From an uncultured Acidobacteriota bacterium (lineage in GTDB: Bacteria; Acidobacteriota; Thermoanaerobaculia; UBA5066): a stretch of DNA of 64,000 bases. The notes below the pieces were generated by a model. That model was not told the DNA's origin. It did not search any database and saw only the letters and a list, made by a program, of their open reading frames with translations. A program made the position numbers and the translations under genes. The stretch spans positions 1 through 64,000 of the forward strand of contig CAIMWE010000019.1 in NCBI GenBank assembly GCA_903845115.1. The letters run 5' to 3'. Of the stretch, positions 6,150-37,954 are shown in pieces. Position 1 is the first letter of the stretch, and the number at the start of each line of letters is the position of its first letter.

Positions 6150-7607
6150 ATGGACCTGACCGAACTGCTCAAGTTCGTGACCAAGAAGGAGGCCTCCGAC
6201 CTCCATCTCAAGCCGGGACGTCCGCCGCTGCTCCGGATCAACGGCCGGCTCGTCCCGCTGAAGACCGACCCGCTCTCGCCGAAGGAGATCGAGGAGATGG
6301 TCCTCCCGATCCTCTCGCCGCTCCAGAAGGAGAAGCTGATGGCGAACTACGCCGTCGACATCGGCTACGGGGTGACGGGCGTGGCTCGCTTCCGAGGGAA
6401 CATCTTCCTGCAGCGCGGCAGCTGGACCGCGGTCTTCCGGAGGATCCCCTTCATCATCCCGGGCATGGACGAGCTGGGGCTCCCCGACGTCCTCGGAACT
6501 TTCATGGACATCCCGGCCGGGCTGGTCCTCGTCACCGGACCCACCGGGTCCGGCAAGTCGACGACCCTCGCGTCGATCATCAAGGGGATCACGGAGCACC
6601 ATCCCCTTCACATCGTGACGGTCGAGGACCCGATCGAGTACCTCTTCCAGGACAACCTCGCCTCGGTCTGCCAGCGCGAGATCGGGACCGACACCGTGTC
6701 GTTCCAGGAGGCGCTGCGCAACGCGCTGAGGCAGGACCCCGACGTGATCATGGTCGGGGAGATGCGGGACTGGGAGACGATCGCGACGGCTCTCACCGCG
6801 GCCGAGACGGGACACCTCGTCTTCTCGACGCTCCACACCAACAACGCCGCCCAGACGATCGACCGGATCATGGACTCGTGCCCGCCGTCGATGGCGAATC
6901 AGGTCCGCCGGCAGGTCTCCCTCGTCCTCAAGGCGATCGTCTCGATGCAGCTGATCGAGCGGATCGACAACAAGGGACGGATCCCGGTCGTCGAGGTCCT
7001 CATCAACTCGCCGAAGATCCAGAAGCTGATCGAGACGGGAGAGACGAAGGACATCCTCGAAGAGATGGAGAGCTCGGTCGCCTACTACCGGATGCAGTCG
7101 ATGAACCAGTCGCTGATCGCCTTGCTGGTGAACGGCGCCATCGACCTGCAGCGGGCGATGGAGCTGACCACCGACCCGGAGGACCTGTCGCTCAAGCTGA
7201 GAAAACTCTTCCCGGCCATCGAGGAGAAGTTCCGAGGAGGAATCATGGCTCCGACCGTCAACGACTTCTCGGCCATCACCGAGCTCATGGACATCAAGAA
7301 GCTCTACGAGGAGCAAGACGAGAAATGGAAGCTCCGTCTCCAGGAAAAGGACGAGCTGCTCCGGAGCCTGGAGGCCGACCTCCACGAGCGGGAACGGCTG
7401 ATCGACGTGCGGGCCCAGCAGGCGGCGGACAGCGACGGAGAGGTCCTCCGGATGCGGCAGGAGGTCGAGAGGCTCAAGCAGGAGGCCGCGGCCCGGATCA
7501 CCCAGCTGAACGAGAGGATCAAGGAGCTGAACCAGCGGCTCATGGGGACGACCGGCGCCAACCAGGCCGCTCCCGGCCCCCCGCCGTCCGGCTTCTTCAA
7601 GCGCTGA
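6150..7607 (+). CDS. PilT-like type IV pilus retraction ATPase with C-terminal coiled coil
   Basis: Hexameric secretion-type ATPase of the PilT family that powers pilus retraction at the cytoplasmic base. Residues 1-110 are the PAS-like N-terminal domain (ASDLHLKPG near 15). The Walker A motif GPTGSGKST is at 130-138, the Asp box TVEDPIEY near 157-164, Walker B DPDVIMVGEMRD at 196-207, and the His box GHLVFSTLHTNNA at 221-233. The family core ends near residue 360. Residues about 385-465 form a long charged coiled coil, and the protein ends in a Pro-rich tail, making it 485 residues instead of about 350-390. The tail is unusual and may dock a partner. A second, conventional PilT is encoded at 47213-48388. 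The next gene starts 82 bp downstream. Confidence 0.92.
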   Translation: MDLTELLKFVTKKEASDLHLKPGRPPLLRINGRLVPLKTDPLSPKEIEEMVLPILSPLQKEKLMANYAVDIGYGVTGVARFRGNIFLQRGSWTAVFRRIPFIIPGMDELGLPDVLGTFMDIPAGLVLVTGPTGSGKSTTLASIIKGITEHHPLHIVTVEDPIEYLFQDNLASVCQREIGTDTVSFQEALRNALRQDPDVIMVGEMRDWETIATALTAAETGHLVFSTLHTNNAAQTIDRIMDSCPPSMANQVRRQVSLVLKAIVSMQLIERIDNKGRIPVVEVLINSPKIQKLIETGETKDILEEMESSVAYYRMQSMNQSLIALLVNGAIDLQRAMELTTDPEDLSLKLRKLFPAIEEKFRGGIMAPTVNDFSAITELMDIKKLYEEQDEKWKLRLQEKDELLRSLEADLHERERLIDVRAQQAADSDGEVLRMRQEVERLKQEAAARITQLNERIKELNQRLMGTTGANQAAPGPPPSGFFKR

Positions 7608-7689: not shown

Positions 7690-9561
7690 ATGAGGAAGAG
7701 GCGGATCGCCGTGGCGGGCCTCGCGGCCCTGCTCCTGGCCGTGGGCGCCTCTTCGTGGCTCGGTTTCCGCCGCCTGCGCTCGACCGTAGCCCGGGCCACG
7801 GACCCGGCGCGGACGGAAGAGGGCCGGGCGCGTCCCCTCGCGTTCTCGCCGATCGGCCACGCCCGATTCCCCATGGACCTCTTCGCCGACCCGTCCCTCC
7901 TCTCCGTGGCCGCTGCCGGGGGCGAGCTCTGGACCGCGGGCGGCCTCGGCCTGTCGGACGGGACGAGGAGCTTCGACCCCGCCGTGGGCCTCCCTTCGGC
8001 CCGGGTCGGCGCGCTCGCGGCGTGGAGGAAGGACGTCGTGTTCGGTCTCGAGGCCGGCGGCTGGGGGAGGGTCAGCGACGCGGGACTCGAGACGGCGACC
8101 TCCGGATGGGGACAGCTCGAGGTCCGGGTCTTTGCCGAGACCGAGGCCGGAGAGCTCCTGCTGGGGGCGAGGCAAGGGCTCTTCCTCGCACCCTACGGGA
8201 ACGGTTCGATCGAGAGGATCTCGGGCGAGCCCGTCCGGGCCGTCGCGCTCCTTCCGGGCGGTCTCGTGGCCGCGGGGGGCGAACGCGGCCTCCAGGTCCT
8301 CTCCCTGTCGGGGACGGGAACCCGCTCCGTGGCGACTCCCGACCCGTGGATCGAGTCGCTCGGGTGGGACGGAAAGAGCCTCTGGGCCTCGACGCCGCTC
8401 GGAACTGCCGTCGGGGATCCGCTCGCCGAACGCCTCCTCCTCGACCCGCATCCCCGCGGGGGGGACGTCCGCAAGGGTCTCGTCCAGGGAGGCGCCTGGT
8501 GGGGCCTGGCGGACGGCGGCCGGCTCGCCGCCCTTCTCCGGGACGGGACGCGGTCGGAGGAGCCCAACCCAGACGGGTTCCGGCGCCTCTTCTCCGTGGG
8601 AGGGAGCCTCTTCGCGGAGGCGCCCGCGGGCCTCTTCCGGAGGGAAACGGGGGGGTGGACCCTCGTCCGGAAGACCCTTCCCGGCGCGCTCCCGCTCTCC
8701 CACGTCAACGCCCTCGCGAGCACCGCCGGGGAGCTGTTCCTCGGGTTCTTCGACGGAGGGGTGGCCTCGTGCCGGCCCGGTCCGATCGGCTCCAGGATGA
8801 CGGTGCGGCCAGTGAGCGGGAGCGCGGCCTGGGGGGTCAACGCGCTCCTCCCGTCGGGAGGGACCGTCTGGGCGGCGACGCTTCGCGGGGTCTTCAAGAT
8901 CCGGGGAGGACGGGTCGAGCCGGTCGACGGCCCGGGCGGGGCGTATTCCCTCGCCCCGACCCCCACGGGGATCGCGCTCGGGTACGGGCAGGGGGTCTCG
9001 CTTCCGGGGGGACGCCTCCTCTCGGCCTTCCACGGACTTCCCGGGAACCAGGCGTACGCGCTGACGGCGGCGCGGGGCTCCGACGCCCTCTGGGTCGGGA
9101 CGCCGACGGGGCTCGGCCGGATCGAGAATGCCCGCGTCACCGCGCGGGCGCTCCCCGGCGAAGGGAAGCTCCCTCACCCCTGGGTCACCGCCCTCGTGGA
9201 CCTGGGCAGCCAGCTCGTGGTCGCCACTTGGGGAGGCGGCGTGGCCTCCCGGACCGGCGACGGCCCATCCGAACGGTGGGCCGCGTTCCCCGAGACCGAC
9301 CGCCTGCGGGTCAACGCCGGCGCGATCGCCCTGGGCCCGGACGGCCGCCTCTGGATCGGGACGCAGGGCGAGGGAATCTGGCGGTCGGACCCTTCCATCA
9401 CGCGGTTCGCGCCGGCCCCCTTCCCTTTGCCCTCCCGGAACGTCTATTCCCTGGCATTCTTCCCGGCAGACCGCCCCGACTCGCTCTTCGCCGGAACGGA
9501 TCAAGGACTGGTCCGGATTCCGCTCTCGCCCGACCCGCCGGTTTCCACGGAGGCCCGATGA
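7690..9561 (+). CDS. Membrane-anchored beta-propeller protein, first gene of the five-gene exported cluster
   Basis: A 623-residue protein with an N-terminal signal anchor (RRKR-type start then AVAGLAALLLAVGASS, about residues 4-20), followed by a periplasmic beta-propeller. Several blades carry motifs like those of two-component regulator propellers: ALWVGTPTGLGRIEN, RLWIGTQGEGIWR and LFAGTDQGLVRI, with earlier degenerate repeats. There is no kinase or output domain, so it is a free-standing propeller that probably binds a partner or ligand outside the membrane. A TAGAAT hexamer at 7671-7676, 13 bases before the ATG, may be its -10 element, but no clear -35 box is seen. Its stop overlaps the start of the VIT/VWA gene (ATGA at 9558). 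It is unrelated in sequence to the giant protein downstream. Confidence 0.8.
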   Translation: MRKRRIAVAGLAALLLAVGASSWLGFRRLRSTVARATDPARTEEGRARPLAFSPIGHARFPMDLFADPSLLSVAAAGGELWTAGGLGLSDGTRSFDPAVGLPSARVGALAAWRKDVVFGLEAGGWGRVSDAGLETATSGWGQLEVRVFAETEAGELLLGARQGLFLAPYGNGSIERISGEPVRAVALLPGGLVAAGGERGLQVLSLSGTGTRSVATPDPWIESLGWDGKSLWASTPLGTAVGDPLAERLLLDPHPRGGDVRKGLVQGGAWWGLADGGRLAALLRDGTRSEEPNPDGFRRLFSVGGSLFAEAPAGLFRRETGGWTLVRKTLPGALPLSHVNALASTAGELFLGFFDGGVASCRPGPIGSRMTVRPVSGSAAWGVNALLPSGGTVWAATLRGVFKIRGGRVEPVDGPGGAYSLAPTPTGIALGYGQGVSLPGGRLLSAFHGLPGNQAYALTAARGSDALWVGTPTGLGRIENARVTARALPGEGKLPHPWVTALVDLGSQLVVATWGGGVASRTGDGPSERWAAFPETDRLRVNAGAIALGPDGRLWIGTQGEGIWRSDPSITRFAPAPFPLPSRNVYSLAFFPADRPDSLFAGTDQGLVRIPLSPDPPVSTEAR

Positions 9562-11885
9562 ACGGACACCGTCTCTCGATTGCCGCTCTCCTCGGCGCTC
9601 TCGCCTTCCCGGCGCCGGCGCAGACCGGACTGCTGGTCCCCTCGTCGAAGGGGCATCCGGACGAGTCGGTGCTGGCTCTCCGGGAGATGAAGGTGGAGGC
9701 CGGCATCTCCCGCGGATACGCCCGGGTGAACGTGGTCCAGGTCTTCGAGAACAGGACCGGCGAGATCCAGGAGGGGACCTGGCGGTTCCAGCTCCCGCCG
9801 TCGGGCGCCGTCGGCGACTTCGCGGTCTGGGACGGGGCCGTCCGGATCCCCGGCGTCATCCTCGAGAAGAAGCGTGCCCGGGCGATCTACCGAGACCTGA
9901 CCACGCAGAAGATCGACCCCGGCCTCCTCCAGCAGGGAGAGGAGGACGACCGCCCGGCCGGCGGCGGTGGTACCCGGCCCTCGGGAGGAGCGGCTTTCTC
10001 GGTGAAGGTCGCGCCGATCCCGGCCTGGGGGACCAAGCGGCTCGAGCTGGAGTACCAGCACGAAGTGCCGTGGGTCGACGGAGTGGGAGAGTTCCGCTTC
10101 CCGCTGAAGCCGGGCGACGGCCTGGGGATGACCGCCGGAACTCTCGGCGTCCGCGTCGTCCTCGAGGACGGAGAGCCCCTCCCGGGCGGGCCCGGGACGG
10201 TCGCCCTCGTCCGGTCCGGGCGCGAGTCGGCGTTTCAGGGAAAGGCCGTCCGGCTGGAGCAAGACGTCGTCCTCAGGTTCCGGCCTGGCGCGACGGCTTC
10301 TCTGGTCTTCACGGCGTTCCGGAATCCCCAGGGGAAGCTTCCGGATGGGCTCGCCCTGGCCCCCTGGGAGCGCCCCACCGAGATTCCCCCGGAGAAGGAC
10401 GGGTTCTTCCTCCTCGAGTACCGCCCGGCCCTCCCGGCGAGCGCCCCGGCCGCCAGGACTCCCCGTCCGCCCGTGAGCGCGATCTTCCTCTTCGACACCT
10501 CGCTGGCGCACCGCTGGAGCGGTCTCGAGACCGGATGGGGACTGCTCGCCCGGATGCTGGACCTCCTGGGGCCCGACGACTCGTTCGCGGTGATCCCCTT
10601 CGACCGGTCCCCTGCCGCGGGGGCTCCCGCTCTCGCCCGGGCCCTGCCCGAAGCCAGGGCGAGCGCCCTCGAATTCCTCAGGTCCCGGCCCCTCCAGCCG
10701 GGAGCCAGCGCCGCGAGCGCCGTCGGCGAAGCCGCCTCCCGCCTCGCCCGGGTCGCCCCCGCGTCGGCGCGCATCGTCCTCCTGACCGGCGGCACGGCGA
10801 GCGCGGCCTCTCTGAAGGAGGCCCGGAAGGGAATCCCGCTCTTCACCGTGATGACGGGAGAGGAGCGCCCAGGGGGGCTCGCGGCCGCATCGGAGGAGTC
10901 GCTGCACCCGGCCTCGTCCGGCGAGGCGGAGGAGACTCTCTTCCTCCGCCGCCTGTTCGCCCCCCTTCCGCCGGCCGGCGCGGGAAAGCCGGTCGACGAA
11001 TCGCCGCTGAAGGTCTCTGGCGCCGCCGGCGTTCGCGACGTCTACCCGGTCATGACCCGGCCCCCCGCCCCGGGATCGCTCTCCGGGTGGGTCGGCCGGT
11101 ACGCGAAGGCGGCCCAGGGGGTCTCACTGGCACCGAAGGGAGAGGCCGTCCCCTCCGTTTCGGCGGACTTTCCCGAGACCGCCCTGGAGGCCCGCGACCT
11201 CCCCCGCCGCTGGGCGCGAGCCCGCGTCGACTACCTCCTCGCGAAGATCGAGCTGGAAGGCGAGAAGAGGGCGTGGGTGGAGGAGATCATCGCCCTGTCT
11301 CGCCGGTACAAGTTCGTCACGCCGTACACCGCGTTCCTCGCCGCCCCCAGGTCCCTCCTCAGGCCGCGCCGGATCCAGCCGGGAGACCCGGTCATCCGCA
11401 TCGAGGCCGACCCGCAGATCGTCTCGGCCACGGCCCTCCTTCCGTTCGGCAAGGCCGTCGACCTCTCGCGCCGCCCCGGCTCGAACCTCTGGGAAGGACG
11501 ATTCCTGGTCCCGGACGGCACGCCCGACGGCCCCCTGCCCGTGAGGCTGATCCTCACGGACGTCTCGGGGGCCAGGCTGGCCGAGACCAAGACCGTCGTC
11601 ATCGACGGGACTCCCCCGGTCATCCGCCCCGACGTCCCGGCCCAGGCGACGGCCGGGGAGACCGTGACCGTGGGCGCCCGGACGGACGCCGACGTCGTCT
11701 TCCTCTCCGTCCGCGTGGACGACGGTCCGCCGATTCCCCTCCGGTGGGACCAGAAGAGCCTGAGGTCGACCGCGCTCCTCACCCTTCCGCCCGGTTCCGC
11801 CGGACACCGCGACCTCTTCTTCGAGGCTTCGGACTCGGCCGGCAACCACGGCTTCGCCCGCGCCGGACTGGAGGTGAGCCGATGA
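9558..11885 (+). CDS. Exported VIT and VWA domain protein
   Basis: A 775-residue secreted protein. A signal peptide (about 1-22, cut near APAQ) is followed by a VIT domain (about 35-190; YARVNVVQVFENRTGEI and EKKRARAIYRDL are typical). Next comes a VWA-like domain (about 305-435) and the helical motif ALSRRYKFVTPYTAFLA (579-595), which is conserved in VIT/VWA proteins. The C-terminal part (about 605-775) looks like beta-sandwich, Ig-like modules. The VWA metal site normally reads DxSxS; here it is DTSLA (313-317), so the last serine is lost and metal binding may be weak or absent. Such proteins act as adhesion or assembly scaffolds. The ATG overlaps the previous stop (ATGA), and its own stop overlaps the next start in the same way, which shows tight coupling in the cluster. 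Confidence 0.85.
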   Translation: MNGHRLSIAALLGALAFPAPAQTGLLVPSSKGHPDESVLALREMKVEAGISRGYARVNVVQVFENRTGEIQEGTWRFQLPPSGAVGDFAVWDGAVRIPGVILEKKRARAIYRDLTTQKIDPGLLQQGEEDDRPAGGGGTRPSGGAAFSVKVAPIPAWGTKRLELEYQHEVPWVDGVGEFRFPLKPGDGLGMTAGTLGVRVVLEDGEPLPGGPGTVALVRSGRESAFQGKAVRLEQDVVLRFRPGATASLVFTAFRNPQGKLPDGLALAPWERPTEIPPEKDGFFLLEYRPALPASAPAARTPRPPVSAIFLFDTSLAHRWSGLETGWGLLARMLDLLGPDDSFAVIPFDRSPAAGAPALARALPEARASALEFLRSRPLQPGASAASAVGEAASRLARVAPASARIVLLTGGTASAASLKEARKGIPLFTVMTGEERPGGLAAASEESLHPASSGEAEETLFLRRLFAPLPPAGAGKPVDESPLKVSGAAGVRDVYPVMTRPPAPGSLSGWVGRYAKAAQGVSLAPKGEAVPSVSADFPETALEARDLPRRWARARVDYLLAKIELEGEKRAWVEEIIALSRRYKFVTPYTAFLAAPRSLLRPRRIQPGDPVIRIEADPQIVSATALLPFGKAVDLSRRPGSNLWEGRFLVPDGTPDGPLPVRLILTDVSGARLAETKTVVIDGTPPVIRPDVPAQATAGETVTVGARTDADVVFLSVRVDDGPPIPLRWDQKSLRSTALLTLPPGSAGHRDLFFEASDSAGNHGFARAGLEVSR

Positions 11886-14800
11886 GCCGCCCGTCCCTGC
11901 GTGCCAGCGGCCTCCTCTCCGGAGGGGTGCTCCTCGCCGCCGCCTTCCTTTCCCGGCGGGAAGTGGCCGCGGGAGAGTCGTTGACTCCGTTCGCCGACCT
12001 GACCGACTCCGATCCGATCACCGCGATCGTCTCCCGGACCGCGACGATCGACGGCCGGCTCGTCCGCTACCCCACCCCGACCCGCGACCTGGCGGCCGCC
12101 CTCGAGGCGAGAGCGGCCGGCGGCGCCAGGGGCGGAGGAGGGGACGGGGCCGTTCCGTCCCGCGACGCCCTGCGCCACCTGGCCGAGGCCCGGCGCGAGC
12201 TGGGCGACCTGCCGGGCGCCGAGGAAGCCCTCTCTCGCTGGGCCGCCTCCTCCCCGTCGGGCGGCGGGACCGAGTGGAACGAGGTCGCCCGGTGGGCCGC
12301 GAGATACCGGCGCTGGCCGCTGGCGCGGACGGCGGCGGCGAAGGCGCTCGACGCTCCGGCGTCGAAGGGCGGCTTCCCGCTGGAGTCCCGGAAGGGCCTC
12401 GCCACCGACCGGATCGAGTGGGCGGGCGAGGACCGCGCGGCCGGGGACCCGGACCAGCTGCGGGGAGACCGGGCGTCGCGCTTTCCGGACGACCCGAAGT
12501 TCGCCGAGGAGTGGATCCGCGCGCTGGAGAAGGCGAAGAAGCTCCGGGAGGCCGACGACGCGCTCCTCGGGGCCAGGGCCCTCGCTCCGGAGAGGCGCGC
12601 GCTCCTGGCCGCCCAGCTCCGGGACGCACGGGGAGACCTCCCGGGCGCCCTCGACGTGCTCGAGAAGGCTGTCCTGGCCGGCCCCGGCCAGGCGCCCTCG
12701 CCGGAGCTCCTCAAGGTATTCGCCGCCGCCGTCGACCGGACCGGGCCCCGGCGAAGGGACGTTTGGAGAGCCTCGCTCGACCGCCGGTTCGATCCGGCCG
12801 CCCTCTCTCTCTACCACGCCTACTTCCAGGGGAAGGGCCGCGGGGACCTCTCCGCCGAGCTCCTCCTCCAGACCGAGCTCAGGCACTCCGGCGCCCTCGA
12901 CCGGATCGCCTGGCTGCAGCTCTCCCGGCTCCACGAGGCCTCGGACACGATCCCGGAGGCCTTCCGGAGCCGCCTCGCGGCCGCCCAGGGAGCGAGCGCC
13001 GACGCGCAGAAGGAAGACCTGGCGGTCCTGGTCCACCTCGCCCTCCGGGCGGGTGCGCGCCCCCTCGCGTGGGGGACGTACAACGACGAGCCCCTGAGAT
13101 GGGCGGCCCGCATCGACGTCCACCCCGGTTTCACGAGCGGAGCCCTCTCCTTCCTGATGACCGGCTTCGACGGCCGGAACGCCCTGCACGGCCTGGAGGC
13201 CAAGCGTCTCCCCGAAAGAACCTTCCGGACGGCCCGGCTCCTCCTCGACGAGCTGGAGCGGCGGGCGCCGGCCCATCCGTCGATCCCCGCGCTCGTGGTG
13301 GAGGTGATGGAGCGTTACGTTCAGCAGGGCCACGGCGCCGACGCCCTCCAGCTCCTTCCGAAAGCCGACCGCGGAGAGGCGCCGGTCCGGGCCGCGGCCC
13401 GCCGCGCCGCTCTCCTCGCGCTCCGCCAGACGAAGGAGGCCCTCCCGAGGGAAGCTGCCCTCTGGAAGGAGCGCCTTCGCCTCCTGGCCCCGGACGGCTC
13501 GGTGCCGCCCATGGCCGAGAACGCCGACGCGGACGGGTACGCGGCGGTCCTCCGGGAGGCGATCGCGCGGCTCGACGCCCGGGACCGCTCCCACCGGACC
13601 TCCCTCGACCTCCTCCTCGCCGAGCTGGACCGCCTCCCGGACGCGGAAGCCCTCTGGCTCTTCGGAACCGGACGCGTCGAGGAGTGGAAGCTCGACGACG
13701 AGATGGAGGGGCGCTACCGCGCGGCCCTGAAGAGCTTCGAAGGGCCCGAGTGGTGGAAGAGCCTGGCGCGCTGGTACGCGCGGCGCGAGAAGAGAGCCGA
13801 GCTCAAGGCCCTCGCGGACGACGTCGCCTCGTCGTTCCGCGGGTCCGAGCTCTTCCGCCGCGACCCGGGCGTGAGCGCCCTGGTCAGGGTCGAAGGGCAG
13901 CCCGAGCTGTTCATCAGGGTCGCCGACTACCTCCGGCTCAGGGCGCTGGAGCGGTTCCCGGCTTCGCCGGCCGTCCTCAAGGAGGCGGAGTCCCACCTGG
14001 TGAGCCTGTCGACGTACCGGGGATTGACCGGCGCCGCCCTCGTCGAACGGAAGGAGAGAGGCGTCGTGGACGACCGCCTTCTGGAGAACCGGAGGGACGC
14101 GGTCCTGTTCCAGGACGACGATCGCCGCGCCCGCCTCATCAGCGGGCTGATGCGGGACGGAGCGCTCGAGAGGTTCCTCGTGACGCTCGAGCAGAAGAGC
14201 GGCAAGACCCCGGTCGACCACCTGTTCCTTCTCGACGGCTGGAGCCGGCTCTCCCGTTTCGAGCAGGCGGTCCCCTGGGCGGACCGGCTCGCCGAGAGCT
14301 ATCCCGGGGATCTCCGGCGGGCGACGGACGCGGTGACGCTCCACCGCTCCCTCTCGGGCCTCTTCCCGGCGGAGGCCGAGAACGCGGCCCGGATCGCCCG
14401 GACCGCGCTGCCGGCCCTGGAGAGCCCCGAAGGGCTCCTCACCCAGGTCGGCGAGATGTGGCAGGACCTCGACCGGCCCGAGCTGGCCGGCGCGGCGTTC
14501 CGGCAGGTCCTGGGGACCCGGCCACGGAACAGCGCGACCATCCTGGAGGTCGCCAGCACCTTCTGGGACTACGGGCGTTTCGAGGAGGCGTCGGGGGTCA
14601 TTGCCGAGGGGCGGCGCACCCTGGGTCTTCCCCACCTGCACGCCTTCGAGGCGGGAGTCCTGAAGGAGGAGACTAAGGACCTCCCGGGAGCCCTGCAGGA
14701 ATACCTCTCGTCCGTGGGCGGAGAGGATGCCGTCCCCGCGGCGGAGGCAGAGGAGCGGTGCGGGACGGGCGACGCCCGGGCCTCCCGCCGGCTGGCGCGT

Positions 14801-17800
14801 CTCGCGGGCCACCAGGGTCCGCGCGCGCTCCTCCTCGCCCGCATCGACGCCCTCCGGCCGGGGAGCCCGGAGTCGGAGGCCGCCGCCGTCCGGCTGCTCG
14901 CCGTCGTGGCCGAAGGGGAGGAGCCGGTCGACCCCTGGGACGACTGGGTCGACGACATGCCTCACGATCCGGTGGGGCGCGAGCAGCGCACGGCCAGGAA
15001 AGAGGCGTCCCGCCCCGCGGTGGAGAAGGGAGTCGTCGCCCTCGGGTCGAGGCTCCAGGAGAAAAGCTTCGCGCTCGCCGACCGGGCGACAGACCTGGCC
15101 TTCATCGCCGCGCTCCGCCGCTGGCGCCGGACCCTCCTCGACCCGCGCTGGACGGCGCCGCCCGAGCAGGCCGGTGTCGAGCTGGAGAGCCGGCTCCTCG
15201 CCCGCGCCTCGGACCTGGCCCCGACGCCCGAAGCCCGCATCGACGCCGAGCTGGCGAGGGCCCGGTACCTCGCCGCCAACGGGAGGGCGGCGGAGGCCGC
15301 CCGCATCCCGCCGGCCCTTCTCTCGAGGATCGACGCCCTCCCCGAGGGACCGGCGAAGATCCGCGCGCTCGTGACGCTGGCGCGCTTCGCCGAGGAACGC
15401 GGGGATCCCGTGGAGGCCTGGTCGCGCGTGTCGGCGAAGTACCCCTGGTCCCTCGGTGTCCTGGACGACCACCTGGAGTTCCTCTTCCGGACAGGGAAGG
15501 CGCGCGAGGCGCTGGACCTCCTCGAGAAGCGGTCCGCCTCGGCGGCCCCGGGGCACCGGGAGCGCCTCGTCGACCGCCTCGTGAGCGAGTCGCTCGACCG
15601 CGGCGACGTCGTCCGGGCCAAGCGCGCGCTCCAGGCCCGTCTTTCCCTGCCCCTCGAGCCCGAGGACCGCGTCGTGGCCGCGGGCCAGCTGGCGAGGATC
15701 TCGCTGCGCGAGGAGCCGGCCTTCGACGCCGTCACGCTCGGAAAGCGGGAGGCGAAGCTCGTCCCGGACCGCCTCCAGGCCGACCTCTGGAACGCGCTCG
15801 CCCTCGCCGCCCGGAAGGAGGCGCGACCCAGGGCCGACCTCACCCTCTCCATCGAAGCACTGAACCGCCGCCTCGACCGCGACTGGCTCGCGGGGGCGGC
15901 GAAGGCCGCGGCGGCCGCGGGACTCGACCCCGAGCTGCTCCGGTTCTTCGAGGCGCAGCGCGCGCGGAGCCCCCGCGACGTCCGGTGGGCCGTCGCCGTC
16001 CGCGACCTGAAGATGTTCGCAGCGGATCTCCCCGGCGCCATCGAAGCCGCCAGGGAGGCGTGCGCGATCGCCCCGGAGCAGGAGTCGCTCCAGCGGGAGG
16101 CCGTGACCCTCTTCGAGCGCGCCGGGAGGTTCCGCGACGCCTCCGACTTCCTGGCCGGATGGGCGAAACCGAGGGCGGGAGACGAGTCCGTCGCCATGTG
16201 GCGCGCGGGGCTCCTCGTCCGGGCGGGCGACAACACCAGAGCCGTGGAGATGGTGCGCGCGTATCTCGCCGCCGCACCGGCGGCCGGGAAGGCGCCGGCC
16301 GCGGACGACGAGGAAGGCGGCGGGGGCGGCAATCTCGCTCGCGCCGTGAGCCGCTTCCTCCAGTGGAACAGACCCAGGGCCGCCTGGATGCTCGCGTCTC
16401 CGCCGGACGGCAAGACCCCGGCGCGCGACGGGCGGCTCCCCCACCGCCTGAGGGCGGAACTGGCCCTCCGGGCCGGTCGTTTCGAGCTGGTCTTCGAGAA
16501 GTTCGGCCGGAACGACGATTTCCTGCGGGAGGCCGCTCCCGCCCTCGAGCGGACGGCGCGGCCGGAACAGCTCGCGGCTCTCCAGGAAACCCTCCTGGCG
16601 AGGCTCTTCCCCACCGGCAAAGCCCCCGATACGGAAGCGCTCAACCGGTACTGGTCGTTCGCGCGGAGCGCAGGTCTGCACCGCTTCGACGAGGCGATCG
16701 CCCGGAAGCTGTTCGAGAGGGGCGGTCCGGGCCCGTGGGGAACGGCGCCGCCGTTCGAGTTCGTGAAGGAGACGAAAGCGGTCGACACGGCCGTGGACAG
16801 CCGGCACTCGCTGGTCTTCGCCCCGCTGCCGACGGAGCGCGAGTGGGTTGGCTTCCTCGTCCAGCGAGACCGGACCGACCTGCTCTCTCCCGTCCTGGAC
16901 CGGATGGTCGCCGAGATCGACCGGCAGGTCTCGTCGGGCGGCGCCGCGGCCGAGGTCCCCTTCGCCCGGTGGTTCCCGGTCGAGCCGTTCTCCCGCATGG
17001 CCGCGAGCGGCGATCACGAGGCGTGGCGCCAGGCCGTGAGGCGGTGGTTCCGCTCGGCCGAGACGTGGGCGCGCTTTCTCCAGGCGACGGGCAAGCAATG
17101 GGACGTGACCCGGATGGTCCGGCTCCTCGACGGGCCCGCACGCGACGCCTGGATTCAGGCCAACGCCGCTTCCGCCGGCAAGAAGCCGGGGAGCGCTGAC
17201 GTCGTCCGGCGGGTCGGCGCCTCCCTCGCCGCGCTCGTCGAGAACGCCCCGGGAGCTTCCAGGGACCCCGACATCGTCCGGCTCCGAGGCCCGCGCACCA
17301 TCGGCGATGTCCTCGGGAACGACCCGAAATGGGCCTTCTCGGAGCTGTCGTCCGGCGGCGGCCGGCCCCCCCAGGAGCTCTGGGACCATCGCCCCGGCGA
17401 CGCCTGGTACGTCCTGGAAACGCTCGCCCGGCTCCGCGAGAAGGACTCCCTCTCCCCGTTCGTCCCGCTCGACTCCGTGGCCAGGGGCCAGGAAGGCGCC
17501 CGGGGTTTCCTCGCCAGCCGCACGGCCGAAGCGATCGGGGAGATCCCGCTCGCACTCCAGCTGGACGGCGGCGACGAGCCGATCGCCCGCCTCGACCGGC
17601 TCGAGAGGCGCCTCCGCTTGCTCGCCTCGTCGCCCGAGCGCAGGAGCGACGCGGCTGCCCTCTTCGCCAAGGAGGTGGCCGGGCGCCAGCGGACGGTCGA
17701 CGCCGCGGCCTTCCGGCAGCTGGAGCGGATCGGCTCCGACCTCGCGCTCGGCGCCGCCATCGACCGGATCGACGCTGCGAAGCCCGTCTCGAACACCCTC

Positions 17801-19432
17801 CTCGTCTCCCTCGTCGACCGCTACGGACCCTCCCGCGTCTCCACCCTCGTTCCCGTCGACGCCTCGGACTTCCGCGCGACCATGGGATGGCGCTGGCGCT
17901 CCGATCTCGACGGGCTCTCCGGGGAGCGGCTGACCTGGGCGATCGATCGCCTCTGGGCCGAGGGGGCCCTTTCCTTCCCGGCCGCGGCGACGGTGCGCGC
18001 CAGGCTCTTCTGGCCCGAGGCAGCCGCGTGGCTCTCGCTCCTCGATCCTCCCCGGAGGAAACAGGGCCTGACGGCCGTGAGATCCCTCCCCGACCCGGCC
18101 GGTCTCCTCGTCTTCGCGGCCTCCCTGCCTCCCGAGACTTCGGCGGCCGGAGAGGCTCTCCAGCTCCTCCTCCTCCGCGCCGAGGTGACGAACGGGAACT
18201 CCGTCGCGGCCCTGAAACGGCTCGAGATGCTGGCGGCCGGCAACAGGGCTTTCTCCCGGGTGCCAGCCCTCCCCTCGCCGGTCGCCCCCCCGGCCAACCC
18301 CGAATCCAGCGGCGACGACGGAGAGCCTGCCCAGCCGCGGGCGGCGGAACGCCAGGAGCCCTCTTCGACCCTCCGTGCGGCCCTCAGGATCGTCCGCCTG
18401 TCGAAGGACCCGAAGGACGCCGTGCCGGCCGAGGAGTTCCTCGCCGAGAAGCTCCGGAAGGGAGAGATTCCCGGGAGCCTCTCCCAGCAGCGGTTCCTGG
18501 CCGTCGACCTCGCCACGAAGAAGGACGACCTCGACCGCGTCCTACAGCAGCTCGAACGGGACTGGGCCGGTGGAGACTGGGACGACAACGCCTCCCGTCT
18601 CGCCCTCGCCGACCTTCTCGCGGGGCGGGACGAGGTGGCCGCCTGGCGCTGGTTCGGGCGCGTGGAGGAGGCCCGCAATCTCGAGAACGTCCGCTCGCGA
18701 TCCTCTCTGCTCGTGAAGTTGAAAAAGGCCGAACTGGCTCGCGGCGAGTGGATCGAGTCCCTCCGGCTGCCCCTCGACCGGCCCGAGGAGCTGATCGCGT
18801 TCGACGCCTGGAGGCAGCTCCCCGCCGGTCTTCCGGAACCGCCGGCCTCCTGGAAGGCCTCGGTGGTCTTCTGGAGGAAGAAGGCTCCGGACTTTCCGGC
18901 GTGGTCGGGCGAGCTGGCGGCGCACCTCAAGCGGAGCCCCTACGACCGGCTCGCCGCGAGGTCGGTTCTCCGGAGCCTCGCCCCGGCGTCCGAGGAGGCC
19001 GTGGCGCCGGCGGTCGCCGCCCTCGGCTCGCCGCAGGACGTCTCCTCCTGGCGGGTCGTCCGCGACACGGCGAACCGGTCGCTCAGGGGGGCCGCGGCCT
19101 TCCTGCCGCCGGGAAAGGCCGTCACCGTCGCCGACCTTCGAAATCGCCGGTTCTCGAAGGCGGAGATCGACGGGCTCCTCCGGACTCTCGCCCGCGTCGG
19201 CGCCTCGGGCGAGCGGACCGCTTATCTCGTCGACCAGTCCGTCGCGTCCCTCGAGGACCTCGGGGTCTCGCCGGTCGCTCCCCTTCGCTCCGAGGTGGCC
19301 CGGATCCGCCTGTCGCTCTTGCCGCCTCCCGCGGTCGTCCAGTCCACAGCCTCCAGGTGGAGCTATCTCAGACCCGCCGACCTCACCTGGGACCTGTATT
19401 CGAGGATCCTGACCGGAGAGGAGTCCCGATGA
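11882..19432 (+). CDS. Giant exported helical-repeat (TPR-like) protein, 2516 residues
   Basis: A very large protein with an N-terminal signal segment (GLLSGGVLLAAAFLS, about residues 9-23) and almost all of the rest made of Ala/Leu/Arg-rich helical hairpins. Many look like degenerate TPR units, for example HLAEARRELGDLPGAEEALSRW near residue 100, and DAFEAGVLKEE-type segments and EAREACAIAPEQESLQREAVTLFERAGRF further on. No enzymatic motif was recognised and no second membrane segment was seen. The predicted shape is a long solenoid in the periplasm or outside the cell, suited to holding other proteins. It is coupled by ATGA overlaps on both sides: to the VIT/VWA gene before and the 536-residue exported protein after. 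Codon use and GC do not differ visibly from neighbours. The long antisense frames opposite it are composition artefacts. Confidence 0.8.
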   Translation: MSRPSLRASGLLSGGVLLAAAFLSRREVAAGESLTPFADLTDSDPITAIVSRTATIDGRLVRYPTPTRDLAAALEARAAGGARGGGGDGAVPSRDALRHLAEARRELGDLPGAEEALSRWAASSPSGGGTEWNEVARWAARYRRWPLARTAAAKALDAPASKGGFPLESRKGLATDRIEWAGEDRAAGDPDQLRGDRASRFPDDPKFAEEWIRALEKAKKLREADDALLGARALAPERRALLAAQLRDARGDLPGALDVLEKAVLAGPGQAPSPELLKVFAAAVDRTGPRRRDVWRASLDRRFDPAALSLYHAYFQGKGRGDLSAELLLQTELRHSGALDRIAWLQLSRLHEASDTIPEAFRSRLAAAQGASADAQKEDLAVLVHLALRAGARPLAWGTYNDEPLRWAARIDVHPGFTSGALSFLMTGFDGRNALHGLEAKRLPERTFRTARLLLDELERRAPAHPSIPALVVEVMERYVQQGHGADALQLLPKADRGEAPVRAAARRAALLALRQTKEALPREAALWKERLRLLAPDGSVPPMAENADADGYAAVLREAIARLDARDRSHRTSLDLLLAELDRLPDAEALWLFGTGRVEEWKLDDEMEGRYRAALKSFEGPEWWKSLARWYARREKRAELKALADDVASSFRGSELFRRDPGVSALVRVEGQPELFIRVADYLRLRALERFPASPAVLKEAESHLVSLSTYRGLTGAALVERKERGVVDDRLLENRRDAVLFQDDDRRARLISGLMRDGALERFLVTLEQKSGKTPVDHLFLLDGWSRLSRFEQAVPWADRLAESYPGDLRRATDAVTLHRSLSGLFPAEAENAARIARTALPALESPEGLLTQVGEMWQDLDRPELAGAAFRQVLGTRPRNSATILEVASTFWDYGRFEEASGVIAEGRRTLGLPHLHAFEAGVLKEETKDLPGALQEYLSSVGGEDAVPAAEAEERCGTGDARASRRLARLAGHQGPRALLLARIDALRPGSPESEAAAVRLLAVVAEGEEPVDPWDDWVDDMPHDPVGREQRTARKEASRPAVEKGVVALGSRLQEKSFALADRATDLAFIAALRRWRRTLLDPRWTAPPEQAGVELESRLLARASDLAPTPEARIDAELARARYLAANGRAAEAARIPPALLSRIDALPEGPAKIRALVTLARFAEERGDPVEAWSRVSAKYPWSLGVLDDHLEFLFRTGKAREALDLLEKRSASAAPGHRERLVDRLVSESLDRGDVVRAKRALQARLSLPLEPEDRVVAAGQLARISLREEPAFDAVTLGKREAKLVPDRLQADLWNALALAARKEARPRADLTLSIEALNRRLDRDWLAGAAKAAAAAGLDPELLRFFEAQRARSPRDVRWAVAVRDLKMFAADLPGAIEAAREACAIAPEQESLQREAVTLFERAGRFRDASDFLAGWAKPRAGDESVAMWRAGLLVRAGDNTRAVEMVRAYLAAAPAAGKAPAADDEEGGGGGNLARAVSRFLQWNRPRAAWMLASPPDGKTPARDGRLPHRLRAELALRAGRFELVFEKFGRNDDFLREAAPALERTARPEQLAALQETLLARLFPTGKAPDTEALNRYWSFARSAGLHRFDEAIARKLFERGGPGPWGTAPPFEFVKETKAVDTAVDSRHSLVFAPLPTEREWVGFLVQRDRTDLLSPVLDRMVAEIDRQVSSGGAAAEVPFARWFPVEPFSRMAASGDHEAWRQAVRRWFRSAETWARFLQATGKQWDVTRMVRLLDGPARDAWIQANAASAGKKPGSADVVRRVGASLAALVENAPGASRDPDIVRLRGPRTIGDVLGNDPKWAFSELSSGGGRPPQELWDHRPGDAWYVLETLARLREKDSLSPFVPLDSVARGQEGARGFLASRTAEAIGEIPLALQLDGGDEPIARLDRLERRLRLLASSPERRSDAAALFAKEVAGRQRTVDAAAFRQLERIGSDLALGAAIDRIDAAKPVSNTLLVSLVDRYGPSRVSTLVPVDASDFRATMGWRWRSDLDGLSGERLTWAIDRLWAEGALSFPAAATVRARLFWPEAAAWLSLLDPPRRKQGLTAVRSLPDPAGLLVFAASLPPETSAAGEALQLLLLRAEVTNGNSVAALKRLEMLAAGNRAFSRVPALPSPVAPPANPESSGDDGEPAQPRAAERQEPSSTLRAALRIVRLSKDPKDAVPAEEFLAEKLRKGEIPGSLSQQRFLAVDLATKKDDLDRVLQQLERDWAGGDWDDNASRLALADLLAGRDEVAAWRWFGRVEEARNLENVRSRSSLLVKLKKAELARGEWIESLRLPLDRPEELIAFDAWRQLPAGLPEPPASWKASVVFWRKKAPDFPAWSGELAAHLKRSPYDRLAARSVLRSLAPASEEAVAPAVAALGSPQDVSSWRVVRDTANRSLRGAAAFLPPGKAVTVADLRNRRFSKAEIDGLLRTLARVGASGERTAYLVDQSVASLEDLGVSPVAPLRSEVARIRLSLLPPPAVVQSTASRWSYLRPADLTWDLYSRILTGEESR

Positions 19433-21039
19433 GAGCCCTTCCGATGCTCCTCGCCGCCTCGTTCCTTGCCGCGCTCGCCTCGCCGGCAGCAGCAGTAGCA
19501 GTAAGCGCAATTCCGGTGCCGGACGGTCCGGTGGTCCTCCGGGTCACCGACGTCCCGGCGTTCGACCGGGCCCTGACCGGCGGCCTCAGGAAGGCCCTCG
19601 CCGGCAAGCTCCCGGAGGCGGATCCCGCGGCGGCGGCCTGGAAGCGGACGAGGGTCGGGGGAAAGCTCGACTCGCAGTGGGCGCTCTTCGCCGCGGACCT
19701 TCCCCTCTCGTGGCCCGACATCCTCTCGCTCCGACCGTCCGAGCTCGCCTTCACTCTCCTCTCCGCCGGAGACCTGGAGGCGGTGATGGCGGTGAGGACC
19801 CCGCTCGCTGCCCTTCCCGTCAAGTTTCCCGCAGGCTCTCCCCGGACTCACCACGGCGTGACCTGGCACTTCGTCTCGCGCGGGGCGGGCGACCTGAAGA
19901 CCCTCGACCGCCGGATCGGCCTCGCCTGGGCCAGGACCGGCGACCTCCTTCTCGTGGCGACGAGCGAGCGGGCCTTGCTGCTCGCCCTCGACGCGCCCCC
20001 GGAGCAGGCGAAGGCTCCCGGCCTTCCGGGGTTCGCCCACCTGAGGCTCGACATGGACCGGCTGAACCCGGACCACTATTTCCGCCGCGAGTTCCTCTTC
20101 CCCGAGGGGCGGGCGGCCCGGGGCATCGTGGAGGCTGCCCTCCGGGTGGAGGGAGAGACTCTCGTCGAGGTCCGCGAAGGCGTGGGGACCGACAGCCCCT
20201 CGGCGGCCAGGTGGCCGACCGAGGGCAGGGGCGTGGCGGCCGCCGGATGGGAGAGCGACGGCACGCGGTTCTTCGCCGCCCTCCGCCGGGCCTTCCTCGA
20301 GCCTCTTCCCGGCGAGCCCTCCGGCCGCCCCGTCCCGGTCTCGAAGGCAATCCCTTCGCCGGAAGGGGCGAGCGACGACCGGTACCTCGTGGACATCACA
20401 CGCGCCGCTCCCGCAGCCGGCAAGGCCGGGGAAGGCGAGCTCCCGGCCTGGACGAAGTTCCTGGCCGAGGCGCATGTGGAGGGCTGGGGCTGGGAGATCG
20501 GCGAGAAGGGAGCCGTCCGCCTCGCCGTGATCCAGCCTCCCTCGTTCGACGGGCCGTTCCTCGACCTGGCGGCGGCGACCGTCCGGCGGCGCGCCGGAAC
20601 GTCGTCCCGGGTCGGCGAGACGCTGCAGGTCGGCCCTGGCCTTTCCGCCTTCGTCGTCCGGCGGCGGGGCGGCGCGCTCTGGATCGGCCTGGCCCCGGAG
20701 GATCTCGCCGACGTGCCCGAGCCTTCGGTGGAGGCTACCCTCGTCCGGTGGGGGCGCGTCGATGCGTCCGTCGTCAGGAGCGAGGGACGCGCGTGGGCGG
20801 AGGCCGAGGGGACGTTCTCCCCGGACACCACGCGGCCCTTCTCGGACCGGGTCCTCGGCCTCCTGGGGTGGGCTCCGTCGCTCCGGACGGTCTCGGTCGA
20901 GCGGCGGCGGGTCGGGACTCGATTCGAGGAGAAGCTGGTCTTCTCGTTCACGAAGGCCGCCCCCGCCTCGAAGCCTTCCCCCGCGGCAGCGAAGCCCAAG
21001 GGCGCCGCTCCGACCCCGAAGAAGCCGAAGAAGGATTGA
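19429..21039 (+). CDS. Exported protein of unknown function, fourth gene of the cluster
   Basis: A 536-residue protein with a clear signal peptide (MRALPMLLAASFLAALASPAAA, about 1-22). The body is mixed alpha/beta without a motif I recognise; it ends in a Lys/Pro/Ala tail (about 505-536) that is probably disordered. Stretches such as RTGDLLLVATSERALLLALD and GGALWIGLAPEDL recur in a pattern suggesting two related halves. In size, export and position beside a YfaQ-like gene it recalls DUF2138 (YfaA) proteins of alpha-2-macroglobulin operons, but I cannot show sequence similarity, so this is only a suggestion. The ATG overlaps the giant gene's stop (ATGA), and its stop overlaps the TTG start of the transpeptidase gene (TTGA). 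Confidence 0.75.
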   Translation: MRALPMLLAASFLAALASPAAAVAVSAIPVPDGPVVLRVTDVPAFDRALTGGLRKALAGKLPEADPAAAAWKRTRVGGKLDSQWALFAADLPLSWPDILSLRPSELAFTLLSAGDLEAVMAVRTPLAALPVKFPAGSPRTHHGVTWHFVSRGAGDLKTLDRRIGLAWARTGDLLLVATSERALLLALDAPPEQAKAPGLPGFAHLRLDMDRLNPDHYFRREFLFPEGRAARGIVEAALRVEGETLVEVREGVGTDSPSAARWPTEGRGVAAAGWESDGTRFFAALRRAFLEPLPGEPSGRPVPVSKAIPSPEGASDDRYLVDITRAAPAAGKAGEGELPAWTKFLAEAHVEGWGWEIGEKGAVRLAVIQPPSFDGPFLDLAAATVRRRAGTSSRVGETLQVGPGLSAFVVRRRGGALWIGLAPEDLADVPEPSVEATLVRWGRVDASVVRSEGRAWAEAEGTFSPDTTRPFSDRVLGLLGWAPSLRTVSVERRRVGTRFEEKLVFSFTKAAPASKPSPAAAKPKGAAPTPKKPKKD

Positions 21040-22838
21040 GCCCCGGCGCCGCGCTCCTCCTCGCCGTGGCGGCGGCCGCGGCCGCCACGGCAGGAGCGCC
21101 CGGGCCGTTCGAGGTCTGGAGCCTCCGCGGAGGAGTCCTCGACTCGGCGGCCGCCGGAGCCCCGGCGGCCCCGGTGGGGTCGATCCAGAAGGTGTGGGTG
21201 GCCCGTGCCTGGGGCGAGGCGCATCCCGACCCCTCCACCGCGATTCCCCGTCACACCTGCGGGCCCGCCTCCGGCTGCTGGAACCGGAAGGGGCACGGAG
21301 AGCTCGGCCTTCGCCGGGCGACGTCGCTCTCCTGCAACGTCTACTTCCTGGCCCTCGCTCGGGGCGTCCCACGGTTCGCCGCCGAGCAGACGTTCCGCGA
21401 GGCCGGCTTCGAGGTCCGGGGGGCCCTGACCCCGGAGCGGATGGTGGGTCTCGACACCGGGGGACGTCCCGTCACGATCCGGCCGGGGCGCCTCCTCGAG
21501 TCGTTCCGGGGGGCCGTTTCGGAGCCGTGGGCAGGCCGGGAGGACGTCCGCGCGGAGCTGGTCGACGGGATGCGCGACGCCTCCGAGGACGGCACCGGCT
21601 CGCTCGTGCCGCTTCCGGGGCTCGTCGTGAAGACAGGAACGGTGGCGTCCCTCGACCGGAACCCGTTGACGACCTCGGGGTGGGCGATCGCGGCCGACCC
21701 GACAGGAGGAACCGTCCGTCTCGCTCTTCTCCGGAACGGGACGGGAGCGCTGGCCGCGGCCCGCCTCGCCCTCCTCTGGCGCGAGGACGGAAAGGGGGCT
21801 CGCGCCTTGCCGCCAGCCCCCGTAGAGGACCGTCCCGGCGCGGCGACCGATCCCAGGCGCCGGCCCCTCCCCGAGAGCGTCCGGGTCCGTCTCTTCTCCG
21901 CCCTCTCCCCGAAGAAGATCACCGCGACCAACGCGGGGACGTTTCCGCTCCGCTTCCAGTCGAGGGCGGGCTCCCTCGAATGGGTCGGCCCGGGAGCGGC
22001 GAGGGAGGTCCGGGAAGGCTCCTTCCTTTCGTCTGGCGCGTGGGAGCTCTCGGTGGAGCCGTACGGACTCGTCCGGCTCGTCCGGGGGTCGCTCGAAGCT
22101 CGGGACGGGCGGCACCCGGTCCTGACGACGGCGCTCCGCGACTGGGTCGAAGGGGTCGTCCGTGCGGAAGCCCGGGGTTTCCCGGCCGAGCGCCTCGCGG
22201 AATTCGTCCCGGTGATCCTGCGGTTCCTCCAGCGCGGCGCCCGGCACGGACGGGAGGACGTCTGCGACCTCTCCCACTGCTGCCTCTTCACGGGCTTCGG
22301 CCCGGACGCCGGCTGGCCCAGACCCGACACGGCCAGGATGGAAGCCGGCGCGGCGAGGCGAGACCGGCCCTTCGTGCCGGAGACCGTCCTGACCGACGGC
22401 GATTGGGCCCTCGCTCTCGACTCCGCCGCTCGGCCCGGGGCTTCTCTCTGGTCGGGACACTGCGGGGGCAGCCCGCTCTCGGAGAGGGAGGTCTGGGGAT
22501 CGGGGAGCGCCGCCGTCACCCCCTGCGAGCACGCGGCGCAGCACGGGCTCGAGGCCCGGTGGACGCGCACCGTCATGGAGGAGACGCTCGCCTCCGTCTT
22601 CCACCGGAGGCCCCTGGCCGTCGAGGCGACCGAGCGGGACGGCGTCCGGAAGACGGCGATCACGTTTCCCGACGGCCGGCAGGAGCTCCTCTGGGACGAC
22701 CTGCATCAACGTCTCGCGCGGGTCGCGGGCTGGGACGCCCTCCCCTCGCCGCCCGACTCCTGGACCCGGACCGCCGCCGGCTGGGCGGTCGCCGGGCGCG
22801 GACGCGGCCACCGGGTCGGCTACTGCCTGGGGGACTGA
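21036..22838 (+). CDS. Exported fusion of PBP-like transpeptidase and SpoIID-like domain (DUF2300/YfaQ-like)
   Basis: A 600-residue exported protein. TTG start overlaps the previous stop (TTGA), and the signal peptide follows directly (about 1-20). Residues 45-250 carry the penicillin-binding-protein triad in order: SIQK at 49-52, SCN at 99-101 and KTGT at 199-202, so a D,D-transpeptidase or carboxypeptidase acting on peptidoglycan stems is likely. Residues about 278-600 look like a SpoIID/LytB domain, a family whose studied members cut denuded glycan strands: VRVRLFSALSPKKITA, DWVEGVVRAEARGFP (369-383, candidate catalytic Glu), DVCDLSHC (408-415), LWSGHCGG (471-478) and the closing GRGRGHRVGYCLG. 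From memory the layout and the PKKIT motif resemble YfaQ/DUF2300 proteins. It is the last gene of the cluster and implies a wall-remodelling job. Confidence 0.8.
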   Translation: MSPGAALLLAVAAAAAATAGAPGPFEVWSLRGGVLDSAAAGAPAAPVGSIQKVWVARAWGEAHPDPSTAIPRHTCGPASGCWNRKGHGELGLRRATSLSCNVYFLALARGVPRFAAEQTFREAGFEVRGALTPERMVGLDTGGRPVTIRPGRLLESFRGAVSEPWAGREDVRAELVDGMRDASEDGTGSLVPLPGLVVKTGTVASLDRNPLTTSGWAIAADPTGGTVRLALLRNGTGALAAARLALLWREDGKGARALPPAPVEDRPGAATDPRRRPLPESVRVRLFSALSPKKITATNAGTFPLRFQSRAGSLEWVGPGAAREVREGSFLSSGAWELSVEPYGLVRLVRGSLEARDGRHPVLTTALRDWVEGVVRAEARGFPAERLAEFVPVILRFLQRGARHGREDVCDLSHCCLFTGFGPDAGWPRPDTARMEAGAARRDRPFVPETVLTDGDWALALDSAARPGASLWSGHCGGSPLSEREVWGSGSAAVTPCEHAAQHGLEARWTRTVMEETLASVFHRRPLAVEATERDGVRKTAITFPDGRQELLWDDLHQRLARVAGWDALPSPPDSWTRTAAGWAVAGRGRGHRVGYCLGD

Positions 22839-22840
22839 GT

Positions 22841-23055
22841 GGCCGGTTCCCGGGTCCCCCGATTCACCTCCGAAATGTCCGTGTCAACGCTCTGCTCCGG
22901 CGCGGGGGGGAGCGTGTAGCGCGCGGGGGACCCGGCCGGTTCCCGGGTCCCCCGATTCACCTCCGAAATGCTCGTGTCAACGCTCCGCTCCGGCGCGGGG
23001 GGGAGCGCGTAGCGCGCGGGGGACCCGGCCGGTCCCGGGTCCCCCGATCCACTTC
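22841..23055. repeat. Tandem direct repeat, 93-bp period, 2.3 copies, with internal inverted repeats
   Basis: Copies begin at 22841, 22934 and 23027 with GGCCGGTTCCCGGGTCCCCC or a close variant; the third copy is cut off after about 28 bases where the lexA stop begins. Copies 1 and 2 differ at only a few bases. Each unit contains CGGGTCCCCCG and, about 60 bases on, the complementary CGGGGGACCCG, so stems can form within or between units. It fills the convergent gap between the transpeptidase gene and lexA. It could be a mobile intergenic repeat or act as a bidirectional transcription end. No T-run follows the stems. Confidence 0.8.
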
Positions 23056-37157: not shown

Positions 37158-37954
37158 GCCCGATCCTCGTCGCCGCGGGGATCGCGGTCAGGGGCGGCCG
37201 CCTCCTCCTCCTCCGTCGACCGGAGGACGGCGCCCTGCCGGGCCTCTGGGAGTTTCCGGGAGGGAAGGTCGAGCCCGGGGAGACTCCCTTCGATGCGCTG
37301 GTAAGGGAGTGGATGGAGGAGATCGGCGTGAGGGTCGCGGGCGCCGAGCCGTTCGCGTTCGCCGAGGGCGAATCCGGGGGAACGCCCCTGCTCCTCCTCT
37401 TCTACAAGGTCACGGCGTTCTCCGGAGAGCCGGCCGCCCTGCTGCCCGGTTCGGCCCTGCGGTGGTCCCCCGCGGAGGAAGCCGCGCTCCTGGCGATGCC
37501 GGCCCTGGACGCCCCGGTCCTCGCGTCGCTGATCCGGGAAGGAAACGGGTCCTTCATGGGAACCGAGTCGCCCGACGCTCCGCGGCTCCTGGCGGAGGCG
37601 GGCGAGCTGGACCCGTACATCGAAGGGTCCGGCCGCCTCCCGGATTCCAGCGTGGTCTTCTTCACGAAGCGCCGGGCCAGAGGCGCCGCGCCGGTGCGCG
37701 GCGTCCTGGTGGGAATCGCCGGCGAGGTCCGGGCGTGGGAGAACGTCTGCCCGCACGTCCCCATCCGGCTCGACCGGCCCGGGGAGGAGGTCCTGCTGGA
37801 GGGCGGGACGATCGTCTGCCAGCAGCACGGGGCCGCCTTCGACGCCCGGACGGGGCTCTGCCACGCCGGGCCCTGTGCGGGGGACCTCCTTCGCCGGATC
37901 CCCCTGTCCCCGGCTGGAGAGGGCTGGGCCGTCGACTGGACGGCGATGCCATGA
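37154..37954 (+). CDS. Nudix hydrolase fused to a Rieske-type iron-sulfur domain
   Basis: A 266-residue cytoplasmic protein in one uninterrupted frame. Residues 1-130 are a MutT-like Nudix domain: VAAGIAVRGGRLLLLRRPEDG, then the full Nudix box (Gly36 to Val59 region, GGKVEPGETPFDALVREWMEEIGV). Residues about 165-266 are a small Rieske domain: CPH at 199-201 and CQQH at 222-225 are the two ligand pairs for a [2Fe-2S] cluster, followed by DARTGLCHAGPCAGDLL, typical of this family. Sanitising oxidised nucleotides is likely for the first part; the second would transfer electrons or sense redox state. The pairing in one chain is unusual. The GTG start overlaps the queG stop (GTGA), and the stop overlaps the next ATG (ATGA). 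Confidence 0.85.
   Translation: MSPILVAAGIAVRGGRLLLLRRPEDGALPGLWEFPGGKVEPGETPFDALVREWMEEIGVRVAGAEPFAFAEGESGGTPLLLLFYKVTAFSGEPAALLPGSALRWSPAEEAALLAMPALDAPVLASLIREGNGSFMGTESPDAPRLLAEAGELDPYIEGSGRLPDSSVVFFTKRRARGAAPVRGVLVGIAGEVRAWENVCPHVPIRLDRPGEEVLLEGGTIVCQQHGAAFDARTGLCHAGPCAGDLLRRIPLSPAGEGWAVDWTAMP

Follow-up and report, generated by a model that had tools for sequence, protein, structure and literature searches.

The described systems closest to the locus reported here are the type II alpha-2-macroglobulin (A2M) operons yfaA-yfaT-yfaS-yfaQ-yfaP of Escherichia coli and magABCDEF of Pseudomonas aeruginosa, each of which encodes a set of exported proteins, one of them very large. The Mag proteins of P. 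aeruginosa form a membrane-tethered complex, whose very large periplasmic member is kept at the inner membrane by proteins of the same operon (PMC5764988). In other bacteria, A2M is paired with PBP1c, and a protect-and-repair role has been proposed (PMC3328433). E. coli YfaQ has been modelled as a transpeptidase-like plus SpoIID-like protein, the deletion of which leads to wider cells (PMC12282094, 2025). In this study, a five-gene operon (positions 7690-22838) was analyzed in a 64,000-nucleotide stretch, hereafter the window, from an uncultured Acidobacteriota bacterium (GCA_903845115.1, contig CAIMWE010000019.1, positions 1 to 64,000). Its first four genes (products P1-P4) form a core that is kept in one order in 14 families of the phylum, and the fifth gene (product P5), which encodes a putative cell wall enzyme, is accessory to this core.

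The four-gene core

The five open reading frames lie on the forward strand and give stop-free translations of 623, 775, 2516, 536 and 600 residues. The genes and the domains of P2 are as follows:

7690..9561, +: P1, 623-residue beta-propeller protein with Reg_prop repeats and an N-terminal hydrophobic segment (domain search, hydropathy); in 28 loci, its orthologue opens the block
9558..11885, +: P2, exported 775-residue protein with VIT, VWA and Ig-like parts (domain search)
9678..10055, +: VIT domain of P2, residues 41-166 (Pfam PF08487, 1.1e-16)
10482..10853, +: VWA domain of P2 (domain search), with a metal-ion-dependent adhesion site (MIDAS) motif
11882..19432, +: P3, exported helical giant of 2516 residues; orthologous open reading frames of 2330-2680 residues
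19429..21039, +: P4, exported 536-residue alpha/beta protein of an undescribed family (no database sequence match; AlphaFold2 model)
21036..22838, +: P5, exported 600-residue fusion of transpeptidase-like and SpoIID-like parts, probably a distant homologue of YfaQ (DUF2300), TTG start

An initial annotation of the window had described five same-strand genes with NTGA stop/start overlaps and an export signal on every product. The coordinates, the strand and all four junctions (9558/9561, 11882/11885, 19429/19432 and 21036/21039, each a 4-base overlap) were verified, and a hydrophobic N-terminal segment was present in all five products (best 13-residue hydropathy 2.1-2.8, and 1.5-3.5 in relatives); in P1 this segment probably stays uncleaved as a membrane anchor instead of being removed as a signal. 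The proposed list of parts (a propeller, a VIT/VWA protein, a helical giant, an unknown 536-residue protein and a transpeptidase-SpoIID protein) also agreed with the domain searches and with the C-terminal model of P3.

The step from overlapping genes to a protein complex fared less well. A gene model of the window built from codon usage contained 31 same-strand pairs, 27 of them outside the operon, and 4-base overlaps were found in 7 of these 27, so that the overlaps alone are unremarkable and make a weak argument here. Moreover, four apparently unrelated genes at 36249-39902 are chained by three consecutive 4-base overlaps and serve as a natural control for such arguments, and among the homologous junctions of relatives the overlap is kept at only about half. 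The overlaps were thus rejected as a sign of a complex; conservation, and not overlap, is the real evidence for a unit.

Conservation was assessed by profile searches that were restricted to Acidobacteriota, with 347 genomes drawn from the phylum and families given as labels rather than names. Among the neighbourhoods read, 28 loci, representing 14 families, showed the order P1-P2-P3-P4 (f1, f21, f23, f26, f29, f33, f34, f35, f39, f43, f67, f75, f76 and f80), and the claim of a single unit therefore holds for the four-gene core. Three more loci (G330, G375 and G119b) carried P2-P3-P4, partial contigs from f49, Vicinamibacteria and Holophagaceae were consistent with the same order, and all five genes were found in order in G003, G004 and G006 (same family, 39-63% identity) as well as in a second family (G166 and G204). 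The flanks were conserved within families (in f1, pilT upstream and lexA downstream), and between families no orthologous flanks were seen, the few cross-family matches being of low identity. The fixed order of a gene set of about 15 kb in no fewer than 14 families points to a function maintained by selection. Furthermore, the pairwise distances of P1-P4 correlated at 0.94-0.98 over 25 loci (shuffles gave at most 0.33), a correlation that partly reflects common species history and is a measure of co-inheritance, not of interaction. No described system with these parts was found, nor any paper on the operon among open-licence papers, and the core P1-P4 appears to be an undescribed gene set, a statement that rests on failed membership tests for known systems.

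The giant P3 was detected in 34 of the 347 genomes by profile search. Its orthologues hold to 2330-2680 residues while their pairwise identity drops as low as 13%. The C-terminal 1077 residues, the only part covered by the model, were predicted to form an all-helical solenoid (pLDDT 78). The sole match in domain searches was a sub-threshold one to a TPR protein, PrsT (TIGR02917, XrtA/PEP-CTERM TPR protein), and this weak local likeness (25.2 bits against a cut-off of 312.2) does not make P3 a member of that family. P2 shares 52-63% identity within the near group of loci and 32-38% with the far group; its MIDAS motif reads DTSLA here and DTSLS in most relatives. The local likeness of P2 to TIGR03788, the sortase-target VIT/VWA protein, was also weak, and its 81 bits lie far below the curated cut-off of 552. 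An apparent fusion of the VIT/VWA and giant genes in L025 was rejected, since a scaffold run of N mimics the fusion. At the same junction, a transposase-like open reading frame lies between the two genes in G069 (L137 4632-5126), and the junction is widened in G368 and G293 too.

The P4 family had no sequence match in Pfam, NCBIfam or the PDB. Its near group (A5) and far group (A9) are joined through the protein of G375 (E 9.5e-8, from an alignment that excluded the G375 protein, and 7.7e-27) and by their shared position in the operon. The AlphaFold2 model of P4 (pLDDT 75, pTM 0.70) gave TP0453 of Treponema pallidum (PDB 3k8h) as the top Foldseek match (E 6e-6, probability 1.00), with a TM-score of 0.43 (by the target only), a root-mean-square deviation of 7.5 and 11% identity, and with P4 twice as long. 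P4 was also considered as a divergent DUF2138 (YfaA) protein and rejected, since Pfam scans gave 0 matches to DUF2138 in 14 P4 members and profile comparison with YfaA gave E 0.43-0.49. G345 was dropped as an operon locus because its P4 match was weak and operon neighbours were absent.

Several features surround the operon. A PilT-like ATPase with a coiled-coil tail is encoded just upstream (6150-7607); two relatives from the same family, G003 and G006, also have it next to the operon (79-82% identity), and a second PilT-like gene occurs in the window at 47213-48388. At 22841-23026, in the space separating the operon from lexA, lie two tandem copies of a 93-bp unit (96% alike) and part of a third, and the rest of the genome gave only short diverged matches to this repeat. 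A promoter and terminator scan gave no signal above chance.

The putative transpeptidase-SpoIID enzyme

The motifs of P5 were located as follows:

21180..21191, +: SxxK motif, S49-K52, of the transpeptidase-like domain; invariant, 16/16 Acidobacteriota sequences
21330..21338, +: SxN motif, S99-C100-N101, without variation (E. coli YfaQ: SCG)
21630..21641, +: residues 199-202, KTG(T) motif with its KTG invariant (E. coli YfaQ: KTW)
22167..22169, +: Glu378, at the position of the SpoIID catalytic Glu; invariant
22263..22280, +: SpoIID-like domain, CDxxHC motif at residues 410-415; 16/16 invariant, not in E. coli YfaQ
22794..22829, +: SpoIID-like domain, GxGHxxGxC motif at the C-terminus; 16/16 invariant

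Seven motifs of P5 (SxxK, SxN, KTG, the SpoIID Glu, CDxxHC, CGG and GxGHxxGxC) were thus invariant in all 16 sequences. The P5 profile matched PBP2 structures (2.5e-8), and the SxxK/SxN/KTG triad is that of penicillin-binding protein (PBP) transpeptidases. The Glu, CDxTHC and GxGHGxG motifs are of the type found in SpoIID lytic transglycosylases, and the SpoIID set including CGG is present in this family's own form in 16/16 sequences; PF08486 (SpoIID) was reached by 2 of 7 P5 members, with a best value of 0.0011. Unlike in the SpoIID and PBP enzymes, both domains are here joined in one exported protein or encoded by neighbours within the operon. P5 is fused in f1, f35, f49 and Vicinamibacteria, and in G128, G230, G291, G298, G088, G100 and G123 (f21, f39 and f29) its halves are encoded by two genes side by side, at the place in the operon that the fused gene takes elsewhere; the fusion therefore links both activities. 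Judged by its motifs, P5 looks like an enzyme built for cutting and re-linking the cell wall.

The initial annotation had pointed to a resemblance to YfaQ, and for P5 this was supported. Profile comparison of P5 with YfaQ from E. coli and Citrobacter gave E 8.4e-7 (0.91 for an unrelated control); the 310 aligned columns take in parts of both domains, in the same two-domain architecture, whereas a search of the genome with PF10062 (DUF2300) gave no match. On this profile evidence, P5 is probably a distant homologue of YfaQ from E. coli. The Asn of SxN, the Gly of KTG and the SpoIID Cys/His motifs, all kept in P5, have been lost from E. coli YfaQ. Because YfaQ has SCG and KTW and is without the SpoIID Cys/His motifs, the Acidobacteriota versions look more active than the E. 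coli protein, and these intact-motif versions are material for testing the function of YfaQ-type proteins.

Full-length P5 was found in 6 of the 347 genomes, all 6 of which also contain P4, and a scan of 85,000 genomes with P5 alone gave 13 loci, all in Acidobacteriota. Separate occurrence of the homologues had been named in the initial annotation as evidence against a unit; it does not refute the four-gene core, since the order of P1-P4 is kept, whereas P5 is also found alone and is missing from some cores.

Putative function and alternative readings

Little is known of the envelope biology of Acidobacteriota, which are widespread in soil. We consider that the operon encodes a conserved envelope complex of this phylum, a putative periplasmic scaffold that recruits wall-remodelling activity, with a probability of about one in two. 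According to this proposal, P1-P5 would assemble in the periplasm, where P1 would anchor the complex to the inner membrane and the giant would act as the scaffold, with P2 and P4 as bound partners. P5 would cut and re-link peptidoglycan at the site of the complex, in envelope maintenance or repair. Only a subset of lineages appends this wall-enzyme module, fused or as two genes, to the P1-P4 block. The mode of action may resemble that of the P. aeruginosa Mag complex, with a large periplasmic protein held at the inner membrane by its operon partners. The Mag complex is a precedent for a membrane-held assembly built on a single large periplasmic protein, and the A2M-PBP1c pairing for the coupling of such proteins to wall enzymes. 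Observed were the co-inheritance, the hydrophobic N-termini and the intact enzyme motifs, together with a predicted helical solenoid.

Several observations weigh against this proposal. Giants of the same family in G149, G173, G210, G108a and G119a (L141, L142, L143, L144 and L158) have no detectable P1, P2 or P4 beside them and are possibly paralogues with another role. P5 was not detected beside many cores, in many families, among the neighbourhoods read, and in G331 (contig C52, L102-L103) a free-standing fused transpeptidase-SpoIID protein lies away from any giant or A2M gene. Because many loci are without the enzyme, wall remodelling cannot be the sole job of the core, which must either have another job too or recruit other enzymes. 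The species history within the distance correlations counts here as well, and the fold likeness of P4 to TP0453, a weak match between a model and a structure, is at most a lead and no sign of membership. Tentatively, and at somewhat less than even odds, the operon may encode a periplasmic machine not described before, whose core of four obligate proteins would be a docking platform for exchangeable effector modules, with the intact transpeptidase-SpoIID enzyme, shared with macroglobulin operons, as one of them.

An alternative, which we regard as unlikely, is that the operon encodes a surface or secretion apparatus, in which the VIT/VWA protein would be an adhesin or matrix component, assembled or displayed by the giant and the propeller, and the enzyme would merely open peptidoglycan locally for the large structure to pass. 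VIT/VWA proteins do include sortase-targeted surface proteins, from whose model P2 falls far short; a solenoid of about 2500 residues, fully extended, would be wider than the periplasm, and the presence of the enzyme in only some lineages fits an accessory wall-opening role. However, the conserved block is without a sorting signal, an outer-membrane channel or a secretion ATPase, and the PilT gene adjoins the operon only in f1.

It is similarly unlikely that the operon encodes an A2M-like defence complex, with invading proteases or toxins trapped or sensed by the giant or the VIT/VWA protein and damage repaired by the wall enzyme. This reading draws on the P5-like enzyme within a true A2M operon of G300 (see below) and on the protect-and-repair role proposed for the A2M-PBP1c pairing (PMC3328433), but no macroglobulin, bait or thioester domain occurs in the operon, the A2Ms of the same genome lie elsewhere without partners, the anti-phage models of PADLOC gave 0 matches for the five proteins, and the enzyme is often not with the core. 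Finally, a loose neighbourhood of separately acting proteins that share an operon for reasons of expression would fit the frequent 4-base overlaps of apparently unrelated genes in the window and the P5-like genes that stand alone, but is made very improbable by an order kept over 14 families despite different flanks and by the congruent divergence of P1-P4.

Comparison with macroglobulin operons

The initial annotation had regarded the locus as a related operon whose macroglobulin has given way to the giant. One shared enzyme upholds this relation, and the rest of it was not supported: none of the five proteins contains an A2M domain (PF00207, MG2, bMG), profile searches of them for DUF1175 and DUF2135 gave no match, DUF2138 was absent from the giant operon by the same means, and the core is often without the enzyme. 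Moreover, the same genome carries two A2M-domain genes elsewhere (contigs C111 and C269, L060 and L061), beside which the usual DUF partners were not recognised.

The shared enzyme is most evident in G300 (contig C14, L093 12968-19315 and on), where a DUF1175 gene (1.5e-56) is followed by an A2M gene (MG2, bait region, TED), a gene for a 266-residue protein without a Pfam match, and a gene for a fused transpeptidase/SpoIID protein. The latter has the same motifs as P5, to which it is homologous over its full length (E 3e-35, model positions 38-586). The giant, the VIT/VWA protein, the propeller and P4 are not adjacent to this row, and G300 carries a separate giant operon elsewhere. One enzyme type is thus common to A2M and giant operons, because a P5 homologue closes the A2M gene row of G300, and its presence there points to the transpeptidase-SpoIID pair as a possible envelope module that can be reused.

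In overall composition, the Yfa and Mag operons are without the giant, the VIT/VWA protein, the propeller and P4, and the operon described here is without the A2M, DUF1175, DUF2135 and DUF2138 proteins of the Yfa/Mag type. What they have in common is a set of exported proteins, one of them very large, encoded in a single operon and, in the case of the E. coli Yfa operon, probably also a YfaQ-type protein with transpeptidase-like and SpoIID-like parts.

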